Of a stretch of 61,241 nucleotides of DNA, positions 598-50,547 are shown in pieces. The notes below the pieces were generated by a model. The model was given only the letters and a program-made list of their open reading frames with translations, searched no databases and was not told the origin of the DNA. The DNA is from a virus: IMG/VR virus record IMGVR_UViG_3300028809_000014, positions 1 to 61,241 of that record; one strand, given 5' to 3'. The first letter of the stretch is position 1; each line of letters begins with the position of its first letter. The position numbers were made by a program, and so were the translations under genes.

Positions 598-3132
598 TTA
601 AAACTCGTCGTCAGCGTCGAGGATCTCGTCCTTGCGCTTTTCGTAATACTCCAGCACCTTGTCAGGGTCGAGCACGTCGTTGTCCACGAACAGGGCCGGA
701 TCTTTCGACCAGAGGTACGTGCGCGAGCCGTTGATCGTCATGCGGCCGATCTGCTCGTAGCCTTCACGGTCGAGCATGGTGCCCAGGGCCTTGGCTGAAG
801 GGAACGCCACGTTGATCGCGTCGAAGGCTGCTTCGAGGTGGCCCGTGGCAACCAGCTTGCGCGAGACCAACTCCCAACCGTTGTCGTCGATCACCTCTTC
901 GAGAGTCAGAACGAACGGCGGCTTGGCGCGGCGGATCATCGCGAGCCGGGCCTTGGTGTCCGGGGCGTTGTCCATCGGCTTGAAGTCGTCGGCCTGCTTG
1001 TGATTGATCAGCCAATGACGCAGCGCGCCCGGCGACTCTTCAATGCAACCGTACAACTCGGCGTAGTAGTCCGGGTGCTCGGCCTTGAACTCCTTGAGCC
1101 GCTCGCGGTTCTGCCACTGGCTGAACAGCACGAGGTAGCGTCGGTCGTTGTCGGTGATGGGCAGCGCGTCCTTGAAGTTGGTGAAGAGCAGGTAGCTCGT
1201 CATCGCCTTGATGTTGTGGATCGGTTTGCCCTTGGGGTGGATCTCGACGATGGTGTTGGCAATGAACGGCTTGATCTTGTTGAGCACCTCGTGTTTGTTC
1301 TTGTCGTCCACCAGCCGCACTTCCTCGACGCACGCCAGCACCTGACCTTCGGCCCAGTCGCTGAAGTCCGAGTGGAAGATCTGTGCGTTGAGCATGCGCA
1401 CGTTCGAGATCCCCATGACCATTCGCATCATCTCGGCGAAGAAGGTCTTGCCGTCGCCTTCGACGCCTTGCAGCAGCACGCCGTAGCGCACGTGATCGCC
1501 CGGGTTCTGCACGACCCACGACAGCCAGTCGATCAACATGCGCTGCTCACGCTCATCAGGCAGCAAGTGGGCGATGTGCGCCTTCACGCGGTTGATCGCC
1601 TTGCGGTCACGTGGTGACAACTTCTCAGGCATGGCCGGGATCTCGTTCTCGTGGTAGGTGTTGGCGAACGTGCCGGCCTCGGTGTAGATGATGTCGTCGT
1701 CACCGGGCATGAACCGCAGACCGTTGACCACCGGCACGCGAAAGGTGTTGAGCGCTAGTTCCGATGCCGAGTTCGACGCGGCCTTCTTGCCGTCGAGCAG
1801 ATCCTTCTTCGTGAACGCCTTGCGGTCGTACATCGCGTCGAAGCCTTGCTTGCTGGCTGAGATCTTGCGCTTGAGTGAGAAGAAGCGGTCATTGCTCGTG
1901 TCGTACACCCAGTCGGTACACCACTCGGGGGTCTTGTCGTCAGCACCACCGGAAAATGCAATCGCCTTCTTGATCTCGGACAGCGGGGTCGCGGCGCCAG
2001 TGATCCCATCGAGCGACTTCTTCGCCACCTGGGACAGACGCGAGCGTGTGAGGCTGTCGATCTCGGCTTCGCGCGTGGCTGTGCGGGCCTCTTCCCATTC
2101 CTTTTGGGTCTTCGCGTTCTGGAATCGCTCTTGCAGTTCGACACCCAACTTCAGCGCCGCCGTCTCCATCGCTTCCTTCGCCATCTTCACGATGTAGCGG
2201 GCGGTGATGGGGGCACGCTTCTTGCCACGGATCGCGAACGACTTCCAGCGGCGATCCAGTTCGTCGGCGTCGTAGTTGTCGGCCTCGCTGGCCCACTCGT
2301 TCCACAACTCCAGCCCCTGGTCATCACCGTCGTACTGGTGATAGAGCGCCATGCCGATGTTGATCCACTCATCGTGGTCCTCGGGATGCGGCACCATCAT
2401 CAGGTAGTTGCGCAGTTCATCCTCTTCGATGTCGATGGCGTTGGAGTCTTCGGCCCACGGGTTGTCGTCACCACCGGATGCACCGGCAAGACGCTTACCC
2501 TTGATCTCGCTCCAGCCGCGCTCGCGTGCGAGTTCGTCGAAGTAGTCGAACAACTCTGCGATCTGGCCGGCATCGAGCGTTGGCAGATCCGCCGCGCGCA
2601 CGTTCAACGGGTTCTTCTTGTCAGGCCACGTGTACGGCTTGTTGGTGTCGGGGTGCTTGTGGAAGGCGACGAACTGCTGGCCGTCACCGAGCACCTCGAT
2701 CATCTGGTCTTGACACCACTCGTCCTGATACTTGGTCGAGCGCATCTTGCGGAAGGGCTCATCCGTGCGGAAGACGAAGAGGCGCTTGGGTGCTCGACCG
2801 ATACGCATGGGTGCAGCGCCGAATTTCTTGCGGACCCACGCGTCAACGAGTAGAGCGACCTCTTCATCACGCACGTCGATGTCGATGGCCGGTGTGTTCT
2901 TCGTCAGGACACCGACGCCGGCCCATCGGTGGCCGTCTTTATCAACCCATTCGCGGATCTGTGCCGTGGTTGCTCGTGCCTTTTGCCAGCCGTCGAAGCC
3001 GGGCGCCTTCTTTCCTACCGAGATAGGAACGACGGTGTATCCGTTTTCGATGAGACGTGGACCGTGAAGCGCGAGGTAACCGCCCTTTTGCGACAGAAAT
3101 TCCGCCTCTGTCAGCGGCTTCTTGTCGTTCAT
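598..3132 (-). CDS. Primase-polymerase / SF3-type helicase fusion
   Basis: An 844-residue replication protein. Residues about 15-190 look like a bifunctional primase-polymerase domain, with the metal-binding AIDIDV at about 82-87 and a conserved GDGQQFVAF segment. Residues about 234-310 match PriCT-2, and the C-terminal half is a D5/DUF5906-like helicase with Walker A GVEGDGKT near 556-563 and a typical TNFKDALPITDNDRRY segment. It should prime and unwind DNA at the phage origin, which lies directly downstream of its stop. The start overlaps the preceding gene (ATGA). The protein ends in the acidic tail DADDEF, a C-terminus shared with other proteins of this phage. Confidence 0.92.
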   Translation of the reverse strand: MNDKKPLTEAEFLSQKGGYLALHGPRLIENGYTVVPISVGKKAPGFDGWQKARATTAQIREWVDKDGHRWAGVGVLTKNTPAIDIDVRDEEVALLVDAWVRKKFGAAPMRIGRAPKRLFVFRTDEPFRKMRSTKYQDEWCQDQMIEVLGDGQQFVAFHKHPDTNKPYTWPDKKNPLNVRAADLPTLDAGQIAELFDYFDELARERGWSEIKGKRLAGASGGDDNPWAEDSNAIDIEEDELRNYLMMVPHPEDHDEWINIGMALYHQYDGDDQGLELWNEWASEADNYDADELDRRWKSFAIRGKKRAPITARYIVKMAKEAMETAALKLGVELQERFQNAKTQKEWEEARTATREAEIDSLTRSRLSQVAKKSLDGITGAATPLSEIKKAIAFSGGADDKTPEWCTDWVYDTSNDRFFSLKRKISASKQGFDAMYDRKAFTKKDLLDGKKAASNSASELALNTFRVPVVNGLRFMPGDDDIIYTEAGTFANTYHENEIPAMPEKLSPRDRKAINRVKAHIAHLLPDEREQRMLIDWLSWVVQNPGDHVRYGVLLQGVEGDGKTFFAEMMRMVMGISNVRMLNAQIFHSDFSDWAEGQVLACVEEVRLVDDKNKHEVLNKIKPFIANTIVEIHPKGKPIHNIKAMTSYLLFTNFKDALPITDNDRRYLVLFSQWQNRERLKEFKAEHPDYYAELYGCIEESPGALRHWLINHKQADDFKPMDNAPDTKARLAMIRRAKPPFVLTLEEVIDDNGWELVSRKLVATGHLEAAFDAINVAFPSAKALGTMLDREGYEQIGRMTINGSRTYLWSKDPALFVDNDVLDPDKVLEYYEKRKDEILDADDEF

Positions 3133-3425
3133 ACGGTCGGTGTCTTGCTGGTCTTGATTTCGAGGGGGTAGACGAGATGATCTTCAGTGATCAGCGTCGT
3201 GCCGGTGCCGGCGATGATCGTGTGCGCCATGGCGCGAGAGAAACTGCCGTTGCGGATGTGTACGAGAATGGTCACGTTGTTCGTCATCTTGAGAAACTTC
3301 GTGAAGGCCCGGATGCTGGGACGACGGCAGTGGTGAAGCGCGAGAAGATAGATGATGAAGGTGAGGCGGGCGGTGGCTCGCGCCGAGTCGGTCTTCTGAG
3401 ACTCGACCCACTTGGGAAAGTACAT
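3129..3425 (-). CDS. Small HTH protein, probable regulator
   Basis: 98 residues, first gene of the short leftward operon, translationally coupled to the primase-helicase by a 4-base overlap. The segment from about residue 35 (SIRAFTKFLKM, then a VHIRNGSFS stretch and a closing LVYPLEI) has the look of a Cro/YdaS-like helix-turn-helix seen in small phage proteins; the family assignment is by eye. A GGAG ribosome site precedes the ATG. Its place at a divergent promoter region suggests that it regulates one or both arms. Confidence 0.6.
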   Translation of the reverse strand: MYFPKWVESQKTDSARATARLTFIIYLLALHHCRRPSIRAFTKFLKMTNNVTILVHIRNGSFSRAMAHTIIAGTGTTLITEDHLVYPLEIKTSKTPTV

Positions 3426-3472
3426 AGGGATGCTCCGGTTTGGTCAGGGACGAAAATATTCTACGACAGGGC

Positions 3473-3500
3473 TTGCGACTTGCGGTGAATGCTGCATAAT
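3473..3500 (+). promoter_or_regulatory. Candidate promoter of the rightward replication operon
   Basis: TTGCGA (3473-3478) and CATAAT (3495-3500) are separated by 16 bases in the 250-base gap between divergent operons. The first downstream gene starts at 3677, leaving a leader of about 170 bases. The minus-strand counterpart is weaker: TAGAAT with no convincing -35. Confidence 0.5.
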
Positions 3501-3676
3501 GCGGTCCATGCACACAGCAAACACCCTTCACACAGCGATGCACGCCGAGGTTATCGTGTAGCATCCGCTTCCCTCCCCAGTCGGCCAAGGCCGGCATCTG
3601 ATCACTTTCCCCGGCCGACGGCAAGACTTGCCCACCTGTTGACGGCTTTCAATTCTCGGGCTATGAGGAACCTCCA

Positions 3677-4051
3677 ATGACCATCGAAACCAAAATCGAC
3701 GAACTGATCGCAGCACTCGACCGCAACACCGCCGCCCAGGGTGGCAAGACCTCGGCTGGCGCCTCGGGCTCGGCCGGCACGACGAGCACCAAGGAAACCA
3801 CGACCAAGCCGTCCGGCAAGGGCAAGGCCGCCGCCTACGAGGCGCAGCACACCAAGGCTGAGGCCCAGGCGCTCGCCAACAAGGTGAAGGACGAGAAGGG
3901 CGTGGAAGTCATCCGTGGCCTGATCAAGAAGCTGGGCTACGACAAGCTGGCCGACATCGCCAAGGCCGAAGACCTCGACAAGCTGTACGACGCGTGCGAA
4001 GCCGAACTCGGTGAAGACGACGCGGGCGGCAGCGACGACGACGGCATCTAA
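3677..4051 (+). CDS. Small acidic protein, first gene of the replication operon
   Basis: 124 residues of unknown function. A short predicted helix (residues 1-20) is followed by an Ala/Gly/Thr-rich linker (about 21-50) and a charged helical C-terminal part ending DDDGI. GAGGAA lies upstream of the ATG. It precedes the DUF2800 nuclease and DUF2815 ssDNA-binding genes, so a role as a replication or recombination accessory factor is likely but only inferred from position. Confidence 0.75.
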   Translation: MTIETKIDELIAALDRNTAAQGGKTSAGASGSAGTTSTKETTTKPSGKGKAAAYEAQHTKAEAQALANKVKDEKGVEVIRGLIKKLGYDKLADIAKAEDLDKLYDACEAELGEDDAGGSDDDGI

Positions 4052-4068: not shown

Positions 4069-5448
4069 GTGTCTGAGCATCCAATCAATCTGGTTGATCT
4101 CGCGGCGATTCGTGATGGCACCGGCCACACGATTTTCTCGCCATCGAGTTCGGCCATGTGGTTGACATGCTCAGGCTCGCTAATTCCAAACCTTCTCGCC
4201 CCCGACGACGCGGGCGAGGATGCCGCATACGGCACAGTGGCACACGAGTTGACTGAAGAGCAACTGAAAACAGGTCGTGTACCAGTGGATCGTATCGGTG
4301 AGACGGTCACCGTGAAGAACGGGAAGAACGTTTTCAAGATCCTGATCGATGAGGACATGCTGCGGCACGTGCAAACGGCCGTGGACTATTGCGAGTGGAT
4401 GCCCGGTGATCACTTCACCGAGCGTCGCGTCTTTTTTTCGGAGTACACCCCGCTAAAAAAACAGAGCGGCACGTCGGACTTCGCCAATTGCGAACCCCAC
4501 AAGTTGACGATCACCGATCACAAGTTCGGTCAAGGTGTGAAGGTCCATGCCGCGATGAACTACGACGATCCGCGCTGTGTGATCATCAACGACATCGACG
4601 ACAGCTTCGAGTTGAACGGGAATTCGCAGGGCCTGTTGTACGCCCTGGGTTTTTTCCTTGAGTACGACTGGATGTACGACTTCAAAGAGATCGTGATCCG
4701 CATCTCGCAGCCGCGTTTGGACCACTTCGACGAGTGGCGCACCACCCGAAAACACCTGCTCGCCTTTGCTGAGTTTGTTCGTCGTCGCTCGCACGACGCG
4801 TGGAAGCTCAACGCACCTCGCCGTGCCAGCACCAAGGGCTGCGAGTGGTGCAAGGTGAAGGCTGACTGCCCCACCTGGGCGGTGATGTACGAAGACATGG
4901 TGTCGGCCGCTTTCGACGTGCGTGCCGAGGCTGACATCGAGACGGTCGAGGAACTGAAGTCGCGCCTGGATGATCCGATCGATGGGTACAAGGTGCCGTT
5001 CGCCGATGCGATGAAGCTCACCACCGAGCAACTCGAAACGATCCTCACCTTCCGGCGTGCGTCAGAGAACTGGTTCAAGAAGATCGAGGAAACGTTGAAG
5101 CAACGCGCACGTGAAGGCGTTAAGCTCGGTCAATGGAAGCTGGTCGCGACGAACACACATCGCTTCTTCCGCCCTGGCGCCGTGAAGAAGATCCTCGCGC
5201 TGCCTGTGCCCACTGGCCGCAAGCCCATCACACGCGACGAACTCGTGAAAGAGACCGTTGTGTCGCCCGCAGAGGGTGAGAGAATTTTGGCGACGCACGG
5301 GTTCAAGCCCGCGCAGATCGAAACCCTGTTTGCTGACCTGACGGATCGACCGCCAGGACAGCCAACCCTAGCAAGGTCCAACGACAAGCGGCCCGAGCTA
5401 GGTGATCCGACCGATGGCGTCTTCGATGACGTGTCGGAGGATTTTTAA
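4069..5448 (+). CDS. DUF2800 protein, RecB/Cas4-like nuclease
   Basis: 459 residues, GTG start 18 bases after the previous stop. The N-terminal FSPSSSAMWLTCSGS segment is typical of DUF2800, a PD-(D/E)XK family found next to phage replication genes. Visible elements are GTVAHE (RecB-type motif I), an Asp-His-Lys motif at about 150-152 in the nuclease core, and Cys34 together with Cys258, Cys261 and Cys267, spaced like the iron-sulfur ligands of Cas4/AddB-type nucleases. It probably processes DNA ends during replication or recombination with the neighbouring DUF2815 protein. It ends in an acidic SEDF tail. Confidence 0.85.
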   Translation: MSEHPINLVDLAAIRDGTGHTIFSPSSSAMWLTCSGSLIPNLLAPDDAGEDAAYGTVAHELTEEQLKTGRVPVDRIGETVTVKNGKNVFKILIDEDMLRHVQTAVDYCEWMPGDHFTERRVFFSEYTPLKKQSGTSDFANCEPHKLTITDHKFGQGVKVHAAMNYDDPRCVIINDIDDSFELNGNSQGLLYALGFFLEYDWMYDFKEIVIRISQPRLDHFDEWRTTRKHLLAFAEFVRRRSHDAWKLNAPRRASTKGCEWCKVKADCPTWAVMYEDMVSAAFDVRAEADIETVEELKSRLDDPIDGYKVPFADAMKLTTEQLETILTFRRASENWFKKIEETLKQRAREGVKLGQWKLVATNTHRFFRPGAVKKILALPVPTGRKPITRDELVKETVVSPAEGERILATHGFKPAQIETLFADLTDRPPGQPTLARSNDKRPELGDPTDGVFDDVSEDF

Positions 5449-5487: not shown

Positions 5488-6150
5488 ATGAGCAAATTGG
5501 AAGTTGTGAAGAAGGTCAAGAATGGTGTGCTGTACCACGACGACAAGGGTGTACCGCACATCCGACTCGACAACGTGCGCATTTCCTACCCCTTCGTCGG
5601 CACGCCCTCGGAAGACGAGAACGATGAGGGCAAGACGCAGAAGAAGTGGCGCATCGTCGCGATGCTGCCCAAGTCGTCGCACAAGGAACTGAAAGACCTC
5701 GTGAAAGAGCAGATCAACTTGCTGATCGCCGACGCGCAGAAGAAGGACTCGAAGGTCAAGGTGCCGATGTCGCACTGGTGCCTCGCCGACGGCGACGAGA
5801 AGGAAGACTCGAACATGGAAGGCCACTTCCTCGTGAGCGCGAGCGACGGCAAGTACCGTCCGAAGGCTCGCGATGCGCGCGGCATCCTGATCGACGACAT
5901 CGACAAGATCGACGAGACGTTCTACGGCGGCTGCTGGGGCAACGTGATGATCCGCCTCTGGTACTTCAACGGCACCTCGAAGAACAACCCGAAGAAGGCC
6001 CTCGCCAAGCGTATCGTGGCCGGCTTCGTGGGTGTGCAGTTCGTTCGCAATGACGAGCCCTTCGGTTCGGGCAAGGTGGACGACGAAGACGCCTGGGATT
6101 CGGTCGAAGGCGAAGGCGGCGGCGACGGCGAAGACGACGGCGAAATCTGA
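5488..6150 (+). CDS. DUF2815 single-stranded DNA-binding protein
   Basis: 220 residues. The body (YPFVGTPSEDE, later FYGGCWGNVMIRLWYFNG) matches DUF2815, a phage OB-fold ssDNA-binding family that normally accompanies DUF2800 and a DNA polymerase, as here. The C-terminus from about residue 195 is a Gly/Asp/Glu-rich tail ending DDGEI, like the acidic tails of SSB proteins, though it closes with Ile rather than Phe. It would coat single strands at the phage fork and recruit partners through that tail. A separate hairpin follows the stop codon. Confidence 0.85.
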   Translation: MSKLEVVKKVKNGVLYHDDKGVPHIRLDNVRISYPFVGTPSEDENDEGKTQKKWRIVAMLPKSSHKELKDLVKEQINLLIADAQKKDSKVKVPMSHWCLADGDEKEDSNMEGHFLVSASDGKYRPKARDARGILIDDIDKIDETFYGGCWGNVMIRLWYFNGTSKNNPKKALAKRIVAGFVGVQFVRNDEPFGSGKVDDEDAWDSVEGEGGGDGEDDGEI

Positions 6151-6460: not shown

Positions 6461-8593
6461 ATGGCATTTGTGAAAGCGCGCTCGGGAACGAAGTTCGGCG
6501 AAGAGCGCCCCACGGCAGTATCCGATACGGAGTGTCTGCCAAACTACTGGTCGATCTTCTTCAAGGATCTCGCAACCGGCCGCGTGGCAAAGATCCGCAA
6601 GATGAACGACGAGCCGCTCAACAAGCGGCAGATCGCCGCGATCATGAAGCGCTATCGCGTGGTCATGTTCAACTCGCGTCACTACGACGAACAGATGCTT
6701 GCCTACGCGATGCACGGGGCCAGCAATCGCGAGTTGAAGATCGCCAGCGACATGATCATTCAAGACGGCATGAAGCCCTGGCAGTTCTACGACTACTTCA
6801 AGTGCGACCGTCTGCCGCGCTTCGTGGACTTGATCGACTTGACCGAGGTGTCGCCAGGATCTCCAGGCAAGCCCAGCTTGAAACTGTCGGCCGCGCGCTT
6901 GCACGCTCGCAAGATCATGGAGATGCCGATCCCCCACGATCAGCCGATCACACCTGACAACATCAACATCCTCTACGAGTACGAGGACAACGACCTTGAG
7001 TTGACCGAGAACGTCTGGAACGAGTTGGCGCCGCAGATCCGCCTTCGGGCCTTGATGTCCGACGAACACAACGTCGATCTGCGTAGCAAGTCCGACGCAC
7101 AGATGGCCGAGGCTGTGCTGATTGCCGAGCTTGAGCGCATCACCGGCTCGAAGGTCAACAAGCCCGAGGTGCGCGCGAAGAAGTTCCGCTACAAGGTTCC
7201 CTCGTACATCAAGTTCAAGACGCCCGCCATGCAGGAATTGATCGCCAAGCTGGCGGTCTCTGACTTCCGCATCGATCACAGCGGCAAGGTCATCGAGCCT
7301 GACTTCCTGAAGAAGATGCCGCTGCCCCTTGGCGATGCGGTCTACACCATGGGTATCGGTGGTCTGCACTCCACCGAGAAAGCGCAGTGGTTCACGCACG
7401 ACCTTGAATGGCTGCTGCTTGATCGCGACGTGACCAGCTATTACCCGTCGATCATCCTGCTGCTGAAGCTGTTCCCTGAGCACCTGGGCCTTAACTTCCT
7501 CAAGGTTCTGCGCAAGCTCTACAACCGCCGCGTGCACGCTAAGAAGATGGCGGCCGAGTGCGCAAAGAACGGCGACAAGGAAGGCGCGCGCAAGTGGGGC
7601 GACATCGCCGAGACGCTGAAGATCGTGTTGAACGGTTTGTTCGGCAAGTTCGGCTCTCCCTACTCCTTGCTCTACGCGCCCGAGTTGATGATTCAGACCA
7701 CCATCACCGGACAACTGTCGGTGCTGATGCTGATCGAAGAACTCGTCGAGCGGGCCTTTGGCGTTGTGTCGGCGAATACCGACGGCTTTGTGACCCGCGT
7801 GCAGGCCTCGCGCCGCGACGAGTTCAACGCACTCATCATGGAGTGGGAGTGGGACACAGGTTTGAGCACGGACGAAACCGAGTACCAGTGGCTGTACTCG
7901 GCGAACGTCAACAACTACATCGCGCTCGACAAGAAGGACGGCAAGGTGAAACGCAAGGGTAAGTCTGCGACGCCTGCCGGTCCAGGTCAAAAGGGCGCAT
8001 CCGGCCTGAAGAAAAACCCGTGGGTCGAGGTGTGCATCGATGCCGTGGTTGCCTACCTCAAAGACGGCACGCCCATCGAAGACACGATCAACTATTGCGA
8101 GGACATTCGCAAGTTCGTCGGCGTCACGCGCGTCACAGGCAAGGGCGTCGTCGCGATGAAGGACGGTGAAGAAATCGGCCGTGCGATCCGGTTCTACTTC
8201 TCGACCGACACCAACACCGCGATCACCCGCAGCGACACGAACGCGCGCATCCCCAGCACGCAAGGCGCCATGCCGTTGATGGAGTTCCCGAAGGAGTTCA
8301 GCGGGGCCGACGACATCCCGGATGACATCGACTACGACTGGTACATCCGCGAGGCATACGCGGTGCTTGAGGGTTATGGCGTGCCCGTGCTCGATCCGAA
8401 GTTCAAGGGCCGCTCTGGCATCTTCACCGGCCTCATGGACGGAACGAAGACCTATCACACAGTCAACCTGCCGACCTGCGTGGCTGTGTGTGGCAAGAAG
8501 CCCAAGTCGATGCGCGAAACATGGTTGGAGATTGCAAAGCCGAATCGTGAGTTCCGCTACTGCGTCAAGTGCGTGAAGGGGAGCGACATATGA
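6461..8593 (+). CDS. Family B-type DNA polymerase with proofreading domain
   Basis: 710 residues; replicative polymerase of the phage. The N-terminal exonuclease domain shows a DxE motif (SDTE, about residue 23) and an FNSRHYDEQ segment near 68-78. Polymerase motif A is DVTSYYPSI (Asp323), motif B is KIVLNGLFGKFGS (about 387-399) and motif C is SANTDGF (Asp441). Motif C lacks the first Asp of the usual DTDS but keeps the second, which is the metal ligand known from RB69 and phi29 polymerases. The stop overlaps the next gene (ATGA), and GGAAGGA precedes the ATG. Confidence 0.88.
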   Translation: MAFVKARSGTKFGEERPTAVSDTECLPNYWSIFFKDLATGRVAKIRKMNDEPLNKRQIAAIMKRYRVVMFNSRHYDEQMLAYAMHGASNRELKIASDMIIQDGMKPWQFYDYFKCDRLPRFVDLIDLTEVSPGSPGKPSLKLSAARLHARKIMEMPIPHDQPITPDNINILYEYEDNDLELTENVWNELAPQIRLRALMSDEHNVDLRSKSDAQMAEAVLIAELERITGSKVNKPEVRAKKFRYKVPSYIKFKTPAMQELIAKLAVSDFRIDHSGKVIEPDFLKKMPLPLGDAVYTMGIGGLHSTEKAQWFTHDLEWLLLDRDVTSYYPSIILLLKLFPEHLGLNFLKVLRKLYNRRVHAKKMAAECAKNGDKEGARKWGDIAETLKIVLNGLFGKFGSPYSLLYAPELMIQTTITGQLSVLMLIEELVERAFGVVSANTDGFVTRVQASRRDEFNALIMEWEWDTGLSTDETEYQWLYSANVNNYIALDKKDGKVKRKGKSATPAGPGQKGASGLKKNPWVEVCIDAVVAYLKDGTPIEDTINYCEDIRKFVGVTRVTGKGVVAMKDGEEIGRAIRFYFSTDTNTAITRSDTNARIPSTQGAMPLMEFPKEFSGADDIPDDIDYDWYIREAYAVLEGYGVPVLDPKFKGRSGIFTGLMDGTKTYHTVNLPTCVAVCGKKPKSMRETWLEIAKPNREFRYCVKCVKGSDI

Positions 8594-8910
8594 GCGCGAA
8601 ACTCTTCTACGAGAAGACGATCAAGGAGATCGACAACATCGAGCAGCCTGCGCAGCGCTGGATGCGTGCTCGCGGTTGGATCTTCGAGAAGGTCGTCAGT
8701 CTGTCGCGCAACGGCTGGCCTGATCGTTGTGCGATCAAGTACGGACTTGTCATTTGGGTCGAGTTGAAGGCACCAAAGAAGACGCCGAAGCAACATCAAC
8801 TCGACATTCATGCGGCGATTCGTGCAAATGGCGGCACGGTCGTATGGTTCGACAACCTCGACGCCTTCAAGGCGTACTTCAGGACTATCGATGAGCAAAA
8901 CGCTTTCTAA
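8590..8910 (+). CDS. VRR-NUC domain nuclease
   Basis: 106 residues from the ATG that overlaps the polymerase stop; an in-frame GTG lies 21 bases earlier. The signature is the restriction-fold core NGWPDR..., then LVIWVELKAPKK (catalytic Glu and Lys) and a QHQLDIHAAIRANGG helix, which is how stand-alone phage VRR-NUC proteins look. The family contains Holliday-junction or flap-type endonucleases. Its place between polymerase and helicase supports a role in resolving branched replication intermediates. Its end overlaps the start of the helicase gene by about 20 bases. Confidence 0.85.
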   Translation: MSAKLFYEKTIKEIDNIEQPAQRWMRARGWIFEKVVSLSRNGWPDRCAIKYGLVIWVELKAPKKTPKQHQLDIHAAIRANGGTVVWFDNLDAFKAYFRTIDEQNAF

Positions 8911-10531
8911 AGAGATCCGGCGTCAACTCGCTGGCGTCAAGCTCAGTAGAGATGAGATGCACGAAGAGCAGGAACTGATGCTCGACTTCCTGCACAAGAC
9001 GCCCTATGCGGCCTTGTTCGCCGAGATGGGCGTTGGCAAGACCATCACTGCGTTGACCCTGGCCGTGGACCTGCTGAATTGCTTTGAGGTCAAGCGCGTG
9101 TTGATCATTGGTCCGTTGAAGGTGGCGTGCGACACGTGGCCGAAAGAGATCGCCATGTGGGACCACACGGCGCCCTTCCGCTTCACGCTTCTGCGTGAGG
9201 ACGACGACGATCCGCGTCTTGCCAAGGCTCGTGCTCGCGCGCGGGCGTTCGGCATGACCGAGGGGTTGAGTCGTGAAGACACCGACCGTATGACGGCTCG
9301 CGCCGAGACGCAAGAGCGCGAACGCATCCGCAAGGATCTTGCCAACACGAAAACGCAGATCCACGTCATCAACCGCGAAGCCGTTACGTGGCTGGTCAAT
9401 CACCATCAGGGCAAATGGCCCTATGACTTGGTGATCATCGACGAGTCGAGCAGCTTCAAGGATCACGCGGCCGACCGCTTCAAGGCTCTGGCGAAGGTGC
9501 GCAAGTACCCGCACCTTATGAAGCGTGTGATCGAGTTGACGGCGACGCCCACGGCCGAGGGTTACATGGGCCTGTGGGCGCAGATGTTCTTGCTGGATCG
9601 CGGCGAACGCCTCGGCAAGAACATCACGGCCTATCGCAAGAGCTACTTCAGCTTCAACCGGTGGTCAAAGCAGTTCGAGATCCGTCCGGGGGCCGAAGAG
9701 AAGATTCTGAAGAAGATCGCGGACATCACCATGATCGTGCGCGCGCGCGACTACGGCAAAGAGCACGTGCCCAAGGTCATCGACCGCAAGTTGACCTTGA
9801 GTCAGCGTGTGATGGGGCAATACGCGACCTTGCAAGACGAATTCGTGTTGCAACTGCCGGATGGCGAGTCGGTATCGGCAGACACGGCCGTGGCGTTGTC
9901 GTCGAAGCTGCTGCAACTTGCCTCGGGCTTTGTCTACGACACCAAGTTGTTGATGGACTGGGACACGGAAGACATCAAGCTCGTCAAGAAGGTGCATCAC
10001 ATTCATGACGAGAAGGTCGCGATGCTCAAGGAAATGGTCGAGGCGTTGCAGGGCAAGCCCGTGCTCATCGCTTACCACTTCAAGCCGTCGCTCGTGCGCT
10101 TGCTCAAGGCGTTCCCTGGCGCCGTGGTCATGGACCCCAAAGGGAAGTGCATCACCAAATGGAACAAGGGGAAGATCCCGATCCTGCTCGTGCACCCGCA
10201 GTCGGCGGGCCACGGGCTCAACCTTCAGCACGGTGGGCACAACATCATCATGTACGACATGCCCTGGTCGCTGGAGAACTACAAGCAGTTGATCGGACGC
10301 CTTGCGCGTCAAGGCCAGAAGTTCGAGGTGATCGTGCAGCGGTTGATCTGCGAAGGCACCATGGATGAAGTAGTCGCCAAGAGCCTGGACAAGAAGGACG
10401 CAACGCAAGAGGACATGTTCCGCATGCTGCGTGCGTACATCAAGGCTCGCCGCAAGATGATGGCGTTGGTGGGCCAGCCGCTGACCAAGCTCGATGTCGA
10501 GATGGACCTCGCCCTGGCTGACGAATTTTGA
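8891..10531 (+). CDS. SF2 (SNF2-like) DNA helicase
   Basis: 546 residues from the ATG at 8891, which overlaps the VRR-NUC gene. Motif I is EMGVGKT (about residue 46), motif II is IIDESSS, motif III lies around ELTATPT, and motif VI is QLIGRLARQGQ, giving a complete two-domain SF2 core of the SNF2/ComF-like type common in phage replication modules. It probably remodels DNA or displaces proteins ahead of the phage replisome. The last residues are LADEF, another acidic tail with terminal Phe. Confidence 0.88.
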   Translation: MSKTLSKEIRRQLAGVKLSRDEMHEEQELMLDFLHKTPYAALFAEMGVGKTITALTLAVDLLNCFEVKRVLIIGPLKVACDTWPKEIAMWDHTAPFRFTLLREDDDDPRLAKARARARAFGMTEGLSREDTDRMTARAETQERERIRKDLANTKTQIHVINREAVTWLVNHHQGKWPYDLVIIDESSSFKDHAADRFKALAKVRKYPHLMKRVIELTATPTAEGYMGLWAQMFLLDRGERLGKNITAYRKSYFSFNRWSKQFEIRPGAEEKILKKIADITMIVRARDYGKEHVPKVIDRKLTLSQRVMGQYATLQDEFVLQLPDGESVSADTAVALSSKLLQLASGFVYDTKLLMDWDTEDIKLVKKVHHIHDEKVAMLKEMVEALQGKPVLIAYHFKPSLVRLLKAFPGAVVMDPKGKCITKWNKGKIPILLVHPQSAGHGLNLQHGGHNIIMYDMPWSLENYKQLIGRLARQGQKFEVIVQRLICEGTMDEVVAKSLDKKDATQEDMFRMLRAYIKARRKMMALVGQPLTKLDVEMDLALADEF

Positions 10532-10574: not shown

Positions 10575-10811
10575 ATGCGACAAGCCAAACCATCCAGCAA
10601 TAAGCAACTGCTTGAGTTCGAGCGGCGTACAGCCTTGGGGCCAACGTATGCCGCTCGTTTGCTTTGCGTCGCGTATGTCACATACGCTCAGTACCGCAAC
10701 GGCAGTCGGGTTCTCCCTCCATACTGCGAGGGCCACATGCGGCACCTCCTTCGCATCCCCGACAAACTCCTGCGCACGATCATCGAAGAGGAACTCTATG
10801 GCAACCGGTAA
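10575..10811 (+). CDS. Small protein before the terminase, unknown function
   Basis: 78 residues from the ATG at 10575; an in-frame GTG-type start further up (10545) would read through the palindrome and is less likely. The sequence is basic and aromatic (ARLLCVAYVTYAQYRNG) with a charged helical end. No family is recognised. It overlaps the terminase small subunit start by 14 bases. Small genes at this position often encode HNH or packaging accessories, but no HNH residues are visible. Confidence 0.55.
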   Translation: MRQAKPSSNKQLLEFERRTALGPTYAARLLCVAYVTYAQYRNGSRVLPPYCEGHMRHLLRIPDKLLRTIIEEELYGNR

Positions 10812-11415
10812 GCTGAACAACTCGCGCTCGCTCGACCCCGTGAGTCGCGCCATGCTCTATGAGGGCGTGACGCAAGGGCAGATGTGCATTCTGTTCCGCA
10901 TCGATCAGCGTAACCTCGCACGCAAGATCCACCGATGCCAGCCCGTGGGTGAACGCTCGGGCACGCCGATTTACGACTTGGCTGAGTGTGCGGCCTACCT
11001 CATCAAGCCGGCCTACGACATCGAGGCGTACATCAAGCGGATGCACTCGAACGAGTTGCCAAAGCACCTGAGCAAAGAATACTGGGCAGGCAAGCGTTCA
11101 CAGCAGGAGTACGAACTGAAGGCCGGCGACCTGTGGCCGACCGCCAAGGTGCTGGAGAAAGTCGGCGAACTCTTCAAGCTGGTCCGCATGTCGGCACTGC
11201 TCACCGTGGACAACATCGAGCGCAACAACGAACTGACCGACAAGCAGCGCGCCTTGATGAGCAGCCTGATGTACGCGATGCTCGACGAACTGCGCAAGTC
11301 CATTCAGAAGGAGTTCGCCGGCCCTGACGAAAAGCCTGTCGAACTGGATCTGAGTACGCAGATGCCCGATGAATCTGAAGAGGATGACGGTGATGAAGAA
11401 GAAGCCGAGTTCTAA
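10798..11415 (+). CDS. Terminase small subunit (Nu1/DUF1441-like)
   Basis: 205 residues from ATG 10798, chosen over longer reading because it follows GAAGAGGAA and leaves a normal protein. The N-terminal third (YEGVTQGQMCILFRI...RNLARKIHRCQP) is a winged-helix DNA-binding region as in Nu1/DUF1441 proteins, and the C-terminal half is helical. It recognises the packaging site and recruits the large subunit encoded next. The tail is highly acidic and ends EEAEF. Confidence 0.85.
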   Translation: MATGKLNNSRSLDPVSRAMLYEGVTQGQMCILFRIDQRNLARKIHRCQPVGERSGTPIYDLAECAAYLIKPAYDIEAYIKRMHSNELPKHLSKEYWAGKRSQQEYELKAGDLWPTAKVLEKVGELFKLVRMSALLTVDNIERNNELTDKQRALMSSLMYAMLDELRKSIQKEFAGPDEKPVELDLSTQMPDESEEDDGDEEEAEF

Positions 11416-18372: not shown

Positions 18373-18624
18373 ATGTCCAAGACCCAATCGACCGGCGCCT
18401 CCACTCGCACCGTCAGCCGCGTCCCCCGCTGCACCGTCGTCATCGTGCGTGACGGCAAGCAAGTCGTGCCCGAAGTCGGCAAGGCTTTCGACTTCACGGC
18501 CCAGGAAGTGGCCGACATCGAGAAGTCCTCGGTCAAGGCGCTGTATCCCACCGAAGGCGCGAGCGCGGGTTCGCTGACCTCCGTGGACGACGGCCGCTCG
18601 GTCTCGACCGACAGCGAGATCTAA
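18373..18624 (+). CDS. Small protein after the capsid gene, FI-position
   Basis: 83 residues, in the place of lambda FI between the major capsid and the joining protein. The sequence is Ser/Thr-rich at both ends with a central VVIVRDGKQVVPEVGKAFDFTA-like stretch; no family is recognised. AAAGGAGA lies upstream of the ATG. It may be a capsid or packaging accessory; that is inferred from position alone. Confidence 0.7.
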   Translation: MSKTQSTGASTRTVSRVPRCTVVIVRDGKQVVPEVGKAFDFTAQEVADIEKSSVKALYPTEGASAGSLTSVDDGRSVSTDSEI

Positions 18625-27714: not shown

Positions 27715-28536
27715 ATGACCTATCAGCAATACGATCAATCAATCGAAGACGGCCAACCGGTCGAGTTCTTCGCTTTCGCGTTGGGGACTAACGTCTTCCG
27801 CTACACGAACAGCGCCAAGAACGAGATGACACCGGACGGCTTTGTGTGGCAGTCGGCCGCGATCTCGCACGACGGCTTCAAACAGACCGGTGAGTCGGCC
27901 ACGGACGCAACGGTGATCACGATGCCGAGCGAACTGACGCCGGCCATGATCTTCGCTACGTCGCCGCCCTCGGGCAAGATGGCCGTGCGCATCCTGCGCA
28001 AGCAGCGTGACGACAACGAGACCCGCGTGACCTACATCGGCACGGTCTCTCAGGTCAATCTCGATGAGCCAGGCAAGGCGACCGTCACGTGCGAGACGCT
28101 CTCGGCCTCGATGCAACGCAGCGGTTTGCGTCTGCCATGGCAGCGCACGTGCCCGTATGCGCTGTACGACCCGGTGACGTGTGGCGTCGATCCTGAACCC
28201 CTGGCCGTCAACGTCAAGATCTTGCAGGTCAGCGGCTTTTGGGTTCGTACCGACGTGGCGGGCAGCTATCCCGACGGCCGCTTCGCTGGCGGCTTCTTCC
28301 GTTGGAACGCGGCGGCACGCGGTCTGGAGTACCGACAGATCGAAGCGCACGTCGGTTTTGACCTGCGGCTCTTCGGCGTGATCAACGACCTGTACGTGGG
28401 GCAGGAGTTGCAGATCTTCCCTGGCTGTGCGCGCACCGTCGCGGCATGCCTTTCGTTCGACAACCTGGGCCGATACGGCGGTGTGCCGAACATGCCCGGC
28501 CGCTCGCCGTTCGACGGCAACCCTGTCTTTTACTAG
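27715..28536 (+). CDS. Tail tip protein, phage BR0599/DUF2163 family
   Basis: 273 residues. The opening (YQQYDQSIEDGQPVEFF, then a YTNS segment), the PSELTP region and the Cys pair in RTCPYALYDPVTCG are hallmarks of the BR0599/DUF2163 family, which takes the place of lambda gpL in many siphoviruses and gene transfer agents. In those it is a hub protein linking the tube to the J-like tip. AAAGGAATG covers the ribosome site. Confidence 0.85.
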   Translation: MTYQQYDQSIEDGQPVEFFAFALGTNVFRYTNSAKNEMTPDGFVWQSAAISHDGFKQTGESATDATVITMPSELTPAMIFATSPPSGKMAVRILRKQRDDNETRVTYIGTVSQVNLDEPGKATVTCETLSASMQRSGLRLPWQRTCPYALYDPVTCGVDPEPLAVNVKILQVSGFWVRTDVAGSYPDGRFAGGFFRWNAAARGLEYRQIEAHVGFDLRLFGVINDLYVGQELQIFPGCARTVAACLSFDNLGRYGGVPNMPGRSPFDGNPVFY

Positions 28537-44053: not shown

Positions 44054-44284
44054 TCAGAACGAGTCGTCGTCGGCCGGAAGCTCTTCTTCCAGGGCTTCGG
44101 CGATCAGGTTGAGCGCGGCGGCCAGGGCGCGGGCGATGGCGGGCACGTCGGACTCCAGCCAGAAGACGCCGTTGCGCTTGCCATCGGGGCGCGCGGCAGG
44201 GCTGAAGCCCATCTCCTTGATCCGGTCAACGCTCAGTTCGACCTCCAGCTTCTTGCAGAGGTCCGTGGTGGAAATAGCGGCCAT
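44054..44284 (-). CDS. Small protein with acidic ADDDSF tail
   Basis: 76 residues from ATG 44284, preceded by AAAGG; the longer in-frame reading would run into the dUTPase gene. The fold looks helical (TDLCKKLEVELSVDRIKEMGF, then ARALAAALNLIAEALEEE). FSPAARPDGKRNGVFW in the middle recalls the short loops of HTH-like phage proteins. The last residues are ELPADDDSF, the acidic plus Phe type of end shared by several proteins here. Confidence 0.7.
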   Translation of the reverse strand: MAAISTTDLCKKLEVELSVDRIKEMGFSPAARPDGKRNGVFWLESDVPAIARALAAALNLIAEALEEELPADDDSF

Positions 44285-44318: not shown

Positions 44319-44936
44319 TCAGAGGTCGTCGCTTGTGGGGCCGGGGTCGTTCCATTCGATGCCGGGGTTGGCACCTTTGGTACGCCAGCCGTGTTTGCCT
44401 TCGGAGCCGAACGGATCTGCGCCGGGGTTGTCGGCGTAACGGTCGGTCGAGCCGAAGCCGCCCGTGCCGCGTGCGGTCGTGCCGAGTTCATCGACGACCT
44501 CGAACTGCACGCGGGGAATCGGGATGATCATGGCCTGGGCAATGCGGTCGCCGGGCTTGACGGTGAAGTGTTTAGCGTTCGTGTCGGCCGTCAGCTTGAC
44601 CATGATCTCACCACGATAGTCAGAGTCGATGATGCCGACGCAGTTGGCGAGCCGCACGTCGCTCTTGAAGCCGTGGCCGCTGCGCGAGAAGATCTGCATG
44701 ACCCAGCCGGGCGGGATCTCAACAGCGAGGCCAGTGCGGAAAACGCCAACATCGTCAGCCCACATGGAGCTTTGTGCCCAGGTGTTGTCTTCGTCCCAGT
44801 CTGCCGGCGCAACGGCGTGCAGGTCAAAGCATGCGGCCTGGAGCGACTGGTAATCGGGCACGATGGCCGCCTCGTGGAGCTTCTTCAGCTTGACGACGAG
44901 CGGGTCAGCCATGCAGGTGCGAAAGGTATTGGTCAT
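44319..44936 (-). CDS. dut: dUTPase with C-terminal extension
   Basis: 205 residues from ATG 44936, coupled to the preceding lipoprotein gene by ATGA. All five trimeric dUTPase motifs are visible: the AACFDLHA start, SRSGHGFK, GIIDSDYRGEI (catalytic Asp), GDRIAQAMI and RGTGGFGST. It removes dUTP and gives dUMP for thymidylate synthesis. It is longer than the usual 150 residues: about 40 residues follow motif V and end PGPTSDDL, close to the KGPSDDDF end of the exonuclease. Confidence 0.92.
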   Translation of the reverse strand: MTNTFRTCMADPLVVKLKKLHEAAIVPDYQSLQAACFDLHAVAPADWDEDNTWAQSSMWADDVGVFRTGLAVEIPPGWVMQIFSRSGHGFKSDVRLANCVGIIDSDYRGEIMVKLTADTNAKHFTVKPGDRIAQAMIIPIPRVQFEVVDELGTTARGTGGFGSTDRYADNPGADPFGSEGKHGWRTKGANPGIEWNDPGPTSDDL

Positions 44937-46803: not shown

Positions 46804-46805
46804 GA

Positions 46806-47414
46806 TCAGAAGTCGTCATCGCTAGGCCCCTTTACGCTCTTCTTCAGATTCATGAAGCACGACGCAATGGCTCGGGCCTGCCACTTTGCATCGTCGAGCG
46901 CGTGATGGGCCACGGCCTTCGGATCGTTGATGCTGCCGTCACGGTGGGGGTCATAGCCGATCAAGTAGTCAGCCACGTCAACCACGGTGCGCATGTCGCG
47001 GATCGAACGGAAGTGCCATGGCTCCTTCAACCCCACCGTACCCGTGTCGTAGGCGTGCTCCAGCCACGTGATGTCGGCCGTAGCGCCGTTGCCCCACGGC
47101 TGTACCTGGCCGGGCAGCGCGCGACCCCAGGAGGTGAACTGCTGCAACGCGGTTGCGAGTGCGAGTTTCAGGCGGCCGGTGTCCTGAAAGAGTTGGCGCG
47201 CCTCGGCGTTCTGCCGCATCCACCATGCCACGGTCTCGCCGTCCACGCGCGCGTTCTTGCAGGCGCTCGCGAACTCGATCTCTTCGTAGTAGGTCTGACC
47301 CAGCTTGCCGCTGCGTCGGTCGAACGCTACGGCGCCGATGGCGATCACTGGTGCGTCCCAGCGCTTGCCCAGGCTTTCGCAGTCAACGGCCACGTCGATG
47401 TATGGGCTCTTCAT
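46806..47414 (-). CDS. DEDDh 3'-5' exonuclease (Rv2179c-like)
   Basis: 202 residues. Motif I is AVDCESLG (Asp, Glu near residues 10-12), motif II is GNGATADITWLEHAY (Asp near 115) and motif III is HHALDDAKWQA (His and Asp near 172-176), which makes a complete DEDDh set. It matches the Rv2179c-like 3'-5' exoribonuclease family; DNA trimming is also possible. The C-terminus is KGPSDDDF, an acidic tail with terminal Phe. Confidence 0.85.
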   Translation of the reverse strand: MKSPYIDVAVDCESLGKRWDAPVIAIGAVAFDRRSGKLGQTYYEEIEFASACKNARVDGETVAWWMRQNAEARQLFQDTGRLKLALATALQQFTSWGRALPGQVQPWGNGATADITWLEHAYDTGTVGLKEPWHFRSIRDMRTVVDVADYLIGYDPHRDGSINDPKAVAHHALDDAKWQARAIASCFMNLKKSVKGPSDDDF

Positions 47415-47863
47415 TTCACAATTCCTAGCGCCGCGTGAACGGCAGAGCGAGCGTACCGACGGACGTTCTCTGCGTCCGCGTCGCTCAGTTGGTTGACGGT
47501 GGTGCCATGGATGCTGAAGGCCAGTTGTTCCGTAGCCGCCGTGTAGTCGATGGCGACCGCAGGCACATCCTTCATGCCCAGGGTTTCGATGTACCTGTCA
47601 GCACCGATGCTGGCAAGGCGGCGCAGCGTGCCCTCGGCCGCGCGATAGGTCTTGTCCTGCTTGCCATGCAGGAAGGCGCTCACGTAGGCCTTCTCGATGT
47701 GCGGCAGCATCGACGCAGTGGGCGGCAAGATGTGCGGCCGGGCGATGTAGAACGGTGTGACCTCGCGGATCACCTCGTGCCCATCGGGTTTCTTGCCAAG
47801 CACACACGTCCGGTTGCCCGAGGTGTACGTGACGACCCAGCCGTCAGGCGTTGTTGCGCTCAT
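47411..47863 (-). CDS. Hypothetical protein
   Basis: 150 residues from ATG 47863 (AAGGAG ten bases upstream); a GTG three codons earlier is closer to the ribosome site. The first half is beta-rich (GWVVTYTSGNRTCVLGKKPDG), the second helical. The gene overlaps its upstream neighbour by 20 bases and the exonuclease start by four. No recognised family; small phage proteins of this type often adapt host enzymes, but that is speculation. Confidence 0.66.
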   Translation of the reverse strand: MSATTPDGWVVTYTSGNRTCVLGKKPDGHEVIREVTPFYIARPHILPPTASMLPHIEKAYVSAFLHGKQDKTYRAAEGTLRRLASIGADRYIETLGMKDVPAVAIDYTAATEQLAFSIHGTTVNQLSDADAENVRRYARSAVHAALGIVK

Positions 47864-48173
47864 ATTGCTCACGCTCCTTGTCGGTGTAACGCCAGCGGAA
47901 GTAATGCTCGGTGCCGTAGCTCTCGGACCAGCAGGTCAGCGTGCCGTAGGCCGCCTTGATGATCACGCGACCCTCGAACAACGCCTGCCCGGTGAAGTCG
48001 TCGTTGTCGCAGATCTCGATCTTGATACCGGCCTTGGCGAGCAACTCCTTGAAACGCAACGCGAGCACAGACGGCAGATCGCGCAGCGGGTGGTAGAAGT
48101 CGTGAAGCTGCATGGCTGACATGCGGATCGTGATCTTGTGCGAGCCTTCAGAATTCGTCATCAGCAGCGACAT
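47844..48173 (-). CDS. Hypothetical protein
   Basis: 109 residues from ATG 48173; ATG 48161 is an alternative with less overlap. A beta-helix-beta layout with HKITIRMSAMQLHDFYHPL and a closing WRYTDKEREQYERNN. The early part overlaps the 3' end of the 116-residue gene by 26 bases. No family is recognised. Confidence 0.64.
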   Translation of the reverse strand: MSLLMTNSEGSHKITIRMSAMQLHDFYHPLRDLPSVLALRFKELLAKAGIKIEICDNDDFTGQALFEGRVIIKAAYGTLTCWSESYGTEHYFRWRYTDKEREQYERNNA

Positions 48174-48498
48174 GCTTGGCTCCCTTCTGCGCGTAGGCGA
48201 TCCACGAGTAGGTCTTCCCCTGGCCGCGCCGCGCCTCGTGCATCGGCCCATATGCGACAGGCTGACCCTTCTTGTCGTGCGTGCCGTGGGAGTACCACTT
48301 CCACACGTAGATGTCGCCGTCGATGTCGTCAACGGTTTGCATGGTCATGAGCCCCGTCTTGACGCTGCGCAACAGCAGCACACCGTGAATCGGAATGCCG
48401 GCCTCACGCAGTGCGTTCATGACGTGAACGTTGTGCCCGATGTCGTTGGTGATCGTGCGCAACGCGTCTGCGTCATAACGCACTTCGATGATCTGCAT
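48148..48498 (-). CDS. Protein with acidic AADDEF tail
   Basis: 116 residues. The sequence starts MQIIEVRYDADALRTITND and contains GDIYVWKWYSHGTHDKKGQPVAYG; a mixed alpha/beta small domain. The end is HVAADDEF, again an acidic residue run closed by Phe. Function unknown. GGACCATCT precedes the ATG, so the ribosome site is weak, and coupling to the upstream gene (nine-base gap) may help. Confidence 0.68.
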   Translation of the reverse strand: MQIIEVRYDADALRTITNDIGHNVHVMNALREAGIPIHGVLLLRSVKTGLMTMQTVDDIDGDIYVWKWYSHGTHDKKGQPVAYGPMHEARRGQGKTYSWIAYAQKGAKHVAADDEF

Positions 48499-48507
48499 AG
48501 ATGGTCC

Positions 48508-48819
48508 TTAAAAATCGTTGTCGTAAGGCCCTTCGAGACGCCACACGCGCACACCGGGGCTCTCGTGTGAAGGGTCGTCGTAGGTATGGCGAAAGCACAC
48601 GCCCAGGCCGGCGCGCAGGAACGGCTTGCGCAGGAACTCGACATCAGCCAGTTGCGCGTCAGGCACGAAGAAGGAGTCGCGGCCAGGGATGAACCGCTTG
48701 AACTTCTCCACCAGATGCTGCACCGCAGGGTCAGGCGGCCGGCCGGTGCGCGGCTTGTAGGCCGGGTCCGTGATGAGCACGGTGTGCTCGGCCAGTAGCT
48801 TGATGTCGGACTTGCGCAT
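48508..48819 (-). CDS. Protein with acidic PYDNDF tail
   Basis: 103 residues. KLLAEHTVLITDPAYKPRTG start, then a loop, GRDSFFVPDAQLADVEF and CFRHTYDDPSHESPG. Beta-rich with a basic centre. The C-terminus is RLEGPYDNDF, matching the KGPSDDDF end of the exonuclease in form. No family is recognised. Confidence 0.68.
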   Translation of the reverse strand: MRKSDIKLLAEHTVLITDPAYKPRTGRPPDPAVQHLVEKFKRFIPGRDSFFVPDAQLADVEFLRKPFLRAGLGVCFRHTYDDPSHESPGVRVWRLEGPYDNDF

Positions 48820-48820
48820 C

Positions 48821-49063
48821 TCAGACGTGGCGAAGCGTCTTGACGCGTTGCACGGCGTTCTTCGAGATCACGCCGGCCGCCTGCGCGCGGGCCAGTTCCT
48901 CGGGCGGCATCGCATGCACAGGGTATCGGCTGTGCCATGCGTTCTTCGCCATGTAGAGCAGGTCAGCGTGCACGCGCTGGGGAAACTTCTCACGAAGCTC
49001 GTTGTAGATCTTCGTGAGGCCGGGGCGACGCTCTTCAGCGTACTCAAGACGCGACTTGCTCAT
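48821..49063 (-). CDS. Small basic helical protein
   Basis: 80 residues from ATG 49063. It starts SKSRLEYAEERRPGLTKIYNELREKFP; helices with a basic overall charge and a VISKNAVQRVKTLRHV end. This could be a nucleic-acid-binding helix bundle. The start is two bases after the stop of the previous gene. Confidence 0.62.
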   Translation of the reverse strand: MSKSRLEYAEERRPGLTKIYNELREKFPQRVHADLLYMAKNAWHSRYPVHAMPPEELARAQAAGVISKNAVQRVKTLRHV

Positions 49064-49065
49064 GG

Positions 49066-49554
49066 TCAGATCGCGTTGTCCGGGTGTTCGGCCAGGAGCG
49101 CGGCCCAGGGCTTGGGCGGCCACTTGGCGGCACCATGGTTGGCGCTGGCCGACTCGGGCGTCTGGAACTGCGGACCCCAGTTGTGGCCGTCCCAGTGGCT
49201 GAAGCCGATGGTGACCATGCCGTCGAGCGCTTCGCTGTCGATCACGGCGTCGTCCTGCTCGGTCACGTAGACGCCCACGCGCGCGGGCGGCACTTCCTTC
49301 GGGTAGAAGACGGAGATCTGGAGGATCTCGCCCGTGGGCATCACGACTTCGCCGCCGATGGGCACCTCGAACATCTTGACCGTCGGCTTGGGCGTCTTCG
49401 AGATGGTCGGGTTTTCGTTGCGCAGGAAGGCGTCGGTGTCGATCACCAGGGCCTGCGTTTCGCCGACGGCAGGCGGGCTGAGTTCACCCACGGGTACGTC
49501 CTTGGGCGGAATGTGCCCTTCGATCTTCGGTTCCTTGCGGAGTTCGTTGTTCAT
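49066..49554 (-). CDS. Hypothetical protein after RdgC
   Basis: 162 residues, directly following rdgC in the operon (stop and start one base apart). A disordered, Glu/Pro-rich N-terminal half leads to a beta-rich domain with VFYPKEVPPARVGVYVTEQDDAV and HWDGHNWGPQFQTPESA. No family; its coupling to rdgC suggests a shared role in DNA metabolism, which is only an inference. Confidence 0.65.
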   Translation of the reverse strand: MNNELRKEPKIEGHIPPKDVPVGELSPPAVGETQALVIDTDAFLRNENPTISKTPKPTVKMFEVPIGGEVVMPTGEILQISVFYPKEVPPARVGVYVTEQDDAVIDSEALDGMVTIGFSHWDGHNWGPQFQTPESASANHGAAKWPPKPWAALLAEHPDNAI

Positions 49555-50547
49555 TTAAAAATCCTCGTCGTTGGTGGTGGAATCGGACTCGTCGGCCGGG
49601 CCGGCAAGTTCCGCGCTGATCGCGGTCACGAGACGACGATAGGTCGTTGCCGTGAGCCACGCGATGGAAAAGAACGCGGTGTCTTTGTCTTCACCACGCT
49701 CTTCGTTGTTGCCTTCGTTCGTCGTGCCGATGGTGCAGCCACGGAAGCACAGCTTGTCGTCGAAGCGGAAGGACATGAGCGGATCGACTTCGCCTTCCTC
49801 GATCCAGTCCATGCCAAGCTCGTGCACGTCGTAGTCGGCCTTCAGCAGGGCCTGGATCTCGTGGGCGCCGATGTCGCGGTCCTTGACGCTCACAACGCGC
49901 TTCTCGGGGCCTTTGAACTTGCCCTCGCTACGCGGATAGAACACCGCTTCGCCGTGCGTGTCGCGGGCCACGCCGTTGAGGTAGCTCACGACGCTCTTCT
50001 CGAACGACAGCGGGCTCGGCGTGAAGTCGTAGAAGGTATTGAAGAAGTTGAACACGATGTCGCAAACCGACTGCGCCTTCTTACCGGCCGCGCAGAAGAC
50101 GAACATCTGCGACTCGGGCGTGATCATCACGTAAACCATCTGTTCACGGATGAACGCCTTGGGGAGCATCTCGAACTCCACCTCGTCACGGGTTTGCGCC
50201 CATTCCTTTTTGCTGCCAGGGCGGCCGGTGAGATCTGCCAACGCGGCCATGCGCACCTTGACCTCTGCATCGCGCACCTTGGCCGGTAGGATGCGTTCGT
50301 TGATCTTGATGCCCAGCAGCACAGCGGCGCCGTTCAGGTCGAGCATGTAGCGGTCGTCGCCGTCGATCTCGGCAAAGCCCAGGCGCGAGTACGAGCCGCC
50401 CGAGGGCTCCATCGCTTCGACCTGCTGCGTTTCGATGTCGTCATTCAGGTTCAGCAGGCCGGCCATCAGATCGTTGCCGGTGAGGTGCTTGGCGCCGTCG
50501 TTGACCGTGAGGTTGTAGACGACAAAATTCTTGAAAGGGTTGCTCAT
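49555..50547 (-). CDS. rdgC: RdgC-like recombination-associated protein
   Basis: 330 residues. FKNFVVYNLTV start, GIKINERILPAKVRDAEVK and the KKEWAQTRDEVEFEMLPKAF segment are hallmarks of RdgC, a ring-forming DNA-binding protein that limits RecA in bacteria. In a phage it may control host RecA activity or protect phage DNA ends. The end is STTNDEDF, an acidic tail not seen in the cellular proteins I know, matching other proteins of this phage. Confidence 0.9.
   Translation of the reverse strand: MSNPFKNFVVYNLTVNDGAKHLTGNDLMAGLLNLNDDIETQQVEAMEPSGGSYSRLGFAEIDGDDRYMLDLNGAAVLLGIKINERILPAKVRDAEVKVRMAALADLTGRPGSKKEWAQTRDEVEFEMLPKAFIREQMVYVMITPESQMFVFCAAGKKAQSVCDIVFNFFNTFYDFTPSPLSFEKSVVSYLNGVARDTHGEAVFYPRSEGKFKGPEKRVVSVKDRDIGAHEIQALLKADYDVHELGMDWIEEGEVDPLMSFRFDDKLCFRGCTIGTTNEGNNEERGEDKDTAFFSIAWLTATTYRRLVTAISAELAGPADESDSTTNDEDF

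Follow-up and report, generated by a model that had tools for sequence, protein, structure and literature searches.

Casjensviridae-like phages appear to tag about a dozen unrelated proteins with a shared acidic C-terminal tail, the last residue of which changes in concert

The virus record IMGVR_UViG_3300028809_000014, analyzed here as a whole over its 61,241 bases (the window), raises the question of why a set of unrelated proteins encoded in one phage genome, among them a primase-helicase, a nuclease and an RdgC-like recombination protein, should end in the same short acidic tail closed by Phe. The comparison described below suggests an answer reaching beyond this genome: one and the same tail appears to have been placed on about a dozen unrelated proteins throughout a phage family, with its last residue changed in concert. 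The virus belongs with the Casjensviridae-like (Chi/Nazgul-like) phages: its core genes match those of Chi, Enc34, BcepNazgul and FoX4, and with named members of Casjensviridae it shares terminase, portal, capsid, tape measure, single-stranded DNA-binding protein (SSB), DUF2800 and SNF2 helicase. Our own gene calling resulted in 88 proteins, with the terminase small subunit (TerS) corrected by hand, and direct translation served as a second check. Functions were assigned by Pfam, PHROGs and NCBIfam, and a tail was considered acidic at a net charge of -2 or lower across the six residues preceding the last one. The comparison set comprised 39 Casjensviridae-like genomes, that is this phage and 38 relatives with 2,684 proteins.

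All nine acidic tails with terminal Phe listed in the original prediction were found, exact in sequence and position, both by gene calling and by direct translation, as were the acidic TSDDL end of dUTPase and three acidic ends in Ile (DDGEI in SSB, DDDGI in a 124-residue protein and TDSEI in an 83-residue protein). A tenth, weaker acidic-Phe end was revealed by the same criterion in the VRR-NUC protein (DEQNAF), the family of which is usually tailless. Within this phage Phe is the last residue in 10 of the 20 acidic-ended proteins and in 5 of the 68 others (Fisher p = 6.5e-5), and acidic-Phe ends are present on 10/88 proteins here vs 21/2684 in the relatives (p = 1.6e-8). When any hydrophobic last residue is allowed, 15 C-termini qualify as acidic-hydrophobic, whereas the rate at positions inside these proteins would predict 2.2. 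Over the comparison set, such ends number 11.1 per genome (range 2-18) vs 2.0 in 15 other phages, and occur on 15.5% of the called genes vs 0.8% of spurious open reading frames of the same genomes. Phage T7, taken as a control, displayed acidic-Phe ends on exactly two proteins (EEADEDGDF and TDWSNDTDF), which we take to be gp2.5 and gp4.

As to whether close relatives lack the tails, in nearly all of them the same families are tailed (SSB, primase-helicase, DUF2800 nuclease, SNF2 helicase, TerS, RdgC, exonuclease and small proteins), but with a last residue other than Phe. This residue is largely uniform within a genome and is mostly Leu, Val or Ile, the Phe version being confined to the present phage. 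Val prevails in Chi, Enc34, KPN137, Smarc5 and Stilesk (e.g., DDDDEV); Ile is used by phiA034 (DDEI), by SESS1 and G028 (LI/MI) and mostly by R22L; Leu is used by most other genomes, with DPAAGL-like ends in the BcepNazgul/G001/G027 group. The nearest relatives of this phage (G002, G018, G020, G023, G026, FoX4 and G029) all use Leu, and therefore Phe is the version of its own lineage; it was found neither in the 38 relatives nor in 50 further contig stretches with readable tail families. In searches with single sequences as probes, the primase detected nine relatives in viral contigs and none in genome contigs, and RdgC and the exonuclease detected none in viral contigs; the SSB profile was too variable to be used for scanning. 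The shared acidic tail noticed earlier is real, and its terminal Phe is the variant that this genome has of a tail common to the family, made of acidic residues and a hydrophobic end. The motif DPAAGL (or DPA[ADEGS][DG]L) was noted on several unrelated proteins in G027, BcepNazgul, G001, AH2 and G011, the lineage-specific pattern (the code, as we call it below) extending there beyond the last residue.

The last residue of the tails is not only shared within a genome but shifts jointly in unrelated genes. Agreement across families within a genome was 0.302 vs 0.188 ± 0.006 when the labels were permuted within families (z 19.9), and the same permutation gave z 9.0 for the penultimate residue and z 21 for the last two residues together. 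A stricter test, in which each family was simulated independently on a concatenated phage tree derived from eleven structural proteins, resulted in an observed agreement of 0.774 vs 0.453 ± 0.061, a level reached in none of the 500 simulations; for pairs not both ending in Leu the values were 0.498 vs 0.067, with the largest simulated value of 0.152. A second set, consisting of contig stretches from which known duplicates of the first set had been removed, showed agreement in 24/88 vs 5.4% after permutation (largest 14.3%), though this was a plain permutation uncorrected for relatedness. The residue of the genome is closely matched by TerS (21/21), RdgC (26/27) and the families of the 116-residue (11/11) and 103-residue (10/10) proteins, as well as by those of the 83-residue (19/21) and 76-residue (6/6) proteins; where a protein of a rare family ends in a strongly acidic stretch and a hydrophobic residue, it matches in 60 of 72 cases. 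Agreement between unrelated families is far beyond that produced by independent evolution along the phage tree, and therefore a common reader of the tails is its best explanation. The earlier idea that many unrelated proteins carry a single docking peptide gains support from this concerted change, with the correction that Phe is not itself the motif.

Could such a pattern arise with no common receptor at all, the tails being generic acidic appendages serving solubility, DNA mimicry or DNA repulsion, with a residue preference set by mutation bias? An acidic tail alone is able to tune DNA binding, as in the sections of the Enc34 study cited here SSB deprived of its acidic tail binds double-stranded DNA (PMC5686142). 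Mutation bias, however, should affect all proteins, whereas the other C-termini of the Val genomes are not rich in Val (in Chi it ends 10/19 acidic-ended proteins and 1/51 others); genomes of similar G+C content use different residues, structural proteins are devoid of tails, and the code reaches the penultimate residue and lineage motifs such as DPAAGL. We consider this explanation unlikely. The recurrence of such lineage motifs on different genes could also be ascribed to recent descent, the tails having been spread within genomes by DNA copying (gene conversion or duplication). However, the agreement of synonymous codons over the shared tail positions is 0.513 vs 0.504 expected, the DNA upstream is unrelated (mean identity 0.298), and many of the tailed families are old orthologues with a tail in most genomes. 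Copying at the DNA level is contradicted by the codon choice in the tails, which equals the expectation from codon usage, and a spread by copying is so improbable that we regard it as ruled out on these grounds.

We therefore return to the common reader. About a dozen proteins probably carry one docking peptide, read by a common partner and changing its last residue by lineage. The peptide would consist of a disordered acidic stretch and a hydrophobic last residue (Phe on ten proteins here); in the partner, most likely a phage protein, a pocket would read the last residue and a basic surface the acidic ones. Such a tail could gather replication, recombination and packaging proteins at one place, or let them compete for that place, and once the pocket had changed in a lineage, all the tails would follow, giving rise to a lineage-specific last residue. 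That only one receptor is involved, and which protein it is, we infer from these patterns. A still broader reading, to which we give an even chance, is a genome-wide C-terminal address code in Casjensviridae, with one phage-encoded receptor co-evolving with the tails and a private residue in each lineage, possibly keeping the machinery of co-infecting phages apart. The concerted change of the last residue across the family would represent a natural experiment in receptor-peptide co-evolution, and the last few residues would offer a way to place uncharacterized phage proteins in DNA metabolism.

The phage DNA polymerase, suggested earlier as a possible hub, has a precedent in T7, where the gp5 polymerase receives the acidic tails of gp4 on its basic patches and is also contacted by gp2.5 (PMC12593628); T7 has the same acidic-Phe ends, some type of polymerase is encoded in all 39 genomes, and its family A type is never tailed. 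Nevertheless, a family A enzyme is present in 20 genomes and a family B-like one in 19, never both and with no detectable homology between them (hhalign probability 0.4%), and the tails persist under both types, the family A genomes alone spanning the Val, Ile and Leu codes. The polymerase is doubtful as a sole receptor because two unrelated enzyme types alternate while the tails stay; its role as a single hub was weakened accordingly, and we regard it as rather unlikely. The exact division of the set, with one polymerase per genome, is in itself a case of repeated non-homologous polymerase replacement within one phage family.

The host could provide the reader instead. The bacterial SSB motif depends on terminal Pro-Phe, and SSB pockets are known for reading terminal Phe. 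The acidic, Phe-ended tails of this phage resemble the C-terminus of the host SSB (DDDIPF), and thus might mimic it and occupy the pockets that bind it, as the original prediction had also envisaged. Yet terminal Pro-Phe was not observed in the tails of this phage, which end in [DEAS]-Phe, and in nearly all the relatives the last place is taken by Leu, Val or Ile. Furthermore, the residue may differ between phages that share a host species (Smarc5 uses Val and Smarc1 Leu, both on Serratia marcescens), and it differs between phiA034 (Ile) and AVP3 (Leu), both on Aeromonas, while Val is common to phages of five enterobacterial genera (Chi, Enc34, KPN137, Smarc5 and Stilesk). The last residue tracks phage lineage over host; because same-host phages differ and Val spans five genera, the reader of the tails follows the phage lineage. 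Docking on host SSB-binding pockets is thus not supported, and we consider it very unlikely.

Among phage-encoded partners, SSB is tentatively proposed as the leading candidate for the common receptor, because it is universal, not replaced and always tailed (39/39), and because in published crystals, according to the cited sections of the Enc34 study, its tail lies in the groove of a neighboring SSB molecule (PMC5686142); some other phage-encoded receptor is about equally likely. The AlphaFold model of SSB (mean predicted local distance difference test score, pLDDT, 88) displayed an OB-fold with a long capping helix at residues 66-86 and a disordered tail scoring below 50. Its top Foldseek matches were Enc34 SSB (5odj, E = 3e-18, and 5odl) and T7 gp2.5 (1je5, E = 6e-7).

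Several observations weigh against the docking of all tails on one receptor, or limit what can be said of it. The code is not strict, Ile instead of Phe being the last residue of SSB itself and of the 124- and 83-residue proteins of this phage; the 124-residue family matches the residue of its genome most loosely (21/31); the Phe version is known from one genome only; and tails are nearly absent from Bhz60 and AhaSv. The SSB model says nothing on docking because its tail is disordered. A search for the receptor, in which distances in the code were set against distances between proteins, yielded only modest partial correlations, the highest being those of SNF2 helicase and DUF2800, and singled out no family. 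Likewise, a column-by-column scan of the families indicated no clear receptor: code-associated columns (p <= 0.05) accounted for 17-23% in the replication proteins (DUF2800, SSB, helicase, primase and VRR-NUC) and for 4-13% in most structural proteins, with 18% in the portal protein. Finally, since the gene calls are our own, errors are possible in a few start positions and small genes.

Short docking tails have been described on two proteins of T7 and three of T4, and no earlier description of the shared tail was found in the open-access papers searched. In T7, gp2.5 and gp4 are unrelated replication proteins with an acidic disordered C-terminus and a terminal hydrophobic residue, and the SSB fold is the same. 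A tail of T7 type ends SSB in all the genomes here and the primase in 29/36, with Phe in this phage alone and there not on SSB. However, T7 has two such proteins, whereas here about 11 per genome are tailed, TerS and RdgC among them; the last residue differs from lineage to lineage, and the polymerase type is not constant. The Enc34 SSB (DUF2815) belongs to the same family as the SSB of this phage, and its acidic C-terminus is known to influence DNA binding; in the cited sections of that paper the tail is treated on SSB only, and the same tail on other phage proteins is not mentioned (PMC5686142). Bacterial SSB shares the acidic stretch and the terminal hydrophobic docking residue, but there one tailed protein meets many pocketed partners, while here many proteins are tailed and Pro-Phe is not conserved. 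A separate observation concerns the R22L phage (W21), which possesses, besides the SSB of the family, a 137-residue protein ending in DDLDDDIPF, i.e., in the bacterial SSB tail. In T4, the sliding-clamp motifs are carried by three proteins (gp43, gp55 and gp33), whereas no universal sliding clamp family was found among the 39 genomes. A tailed family of 218-252 residues, clamp-like to the eye, was noted in G001 (47321-48058), G003 (8472-9128), G027 (54268-55026) and BcepNazgul (9682-10395; record coordinates); it had no match in PDB, PHROGs labels a relative as RusA-like, and AlphaFold gave no usable model (pLDDT 33).

The relevant proteins of this phage are collected in Table 1. The tailed set was described earlier as one of replication and nucleotide-metabolism proteins; such proteins are indeed tailed, but so are TerS and a small protein encoded after the capsid gene. 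No homologue of the dUTPase was found in the sampled relatives.

Table 1. Proteins of the phage considered in this work: position in the window, C-terminal end, annotation and share of genomes in which the family is tailed.
Protein	Position	Strand	C-terminal end	Annotation	Tailed in
Prim-Pol/DUF5906 primase-helicase	598-3132	-	DADDEF	PF09250, PF08707, PF19263; PHROG 1156 DNA primase	29/36 genomes
124-residue protein	3677-4051	+	SDDDGI	PHROG 7721	31/32 genomes
DUF2800 (Cas4/RecB-like) nuclease	4156-5448	+	DVSEDF	PF10926 (2.3e-51)	23/39 genomes
T7/Enc34-type SSB	5488-6150	+	EDDGEI	PF10991 (4.1e-20); PHROG 112 Gp2.5-like	39/39 genomes
Family B-like DNA polymerase	6461-8593	+	VKGSDI (weak, no clear tail)	PHROG 1252; family B matches	
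VRR-NUC-like endonuclease	8590-8910	+	DEQNAF (weak)	PHROG 93 endonuclease	2/37 genomes
SNF2/SF2 helicase	8891-10531	+	ALADEF	PF00176, PF00271	15/39 genomes
TerS	10798-11415	+	EEEAEF	PHROG 141 (7.3e-39)	23/27 genomes
83-residue protein directly after major capsid gene	18373-18624	+	STDSEI		22/35 genomes
76-residue protein	44054-44284	-	ADDDSF		6/6 family members
dUTPase	44319-44936	-	TSDDL (acidic, last residue Leu)	PF00692 (3.9e-18)	
DEDD-type 3'-5' exonuclease	46806-47414	-	PSDDDF	PF16473 (6.4e-44)	8/15 genomes
116-residue protein	48148-48498	-	AADDEF		11/12 genomes
103-residue protein	48508-48819	-	PYDNDF		10/18 genomes
RdgC-like recombination protein	49555-50547	-	TNDEDF	PHROG 724; NCBIfam RdgC	27/27 genomes

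Two minor features of the window deserve mention. The structural protein encoded at 27715-28536 ends in FDGNPVFY (SPFDGDPVF in relatives) and falls under the acidic-hydrophobic definition in six genomes, although it looks unrelated to the tail system. Beside the primase gene, an inverted repeat of about 120 bases is located at 220-341, with a 75% match to its own reverse strand, and possibly represents a terminator or an origin.

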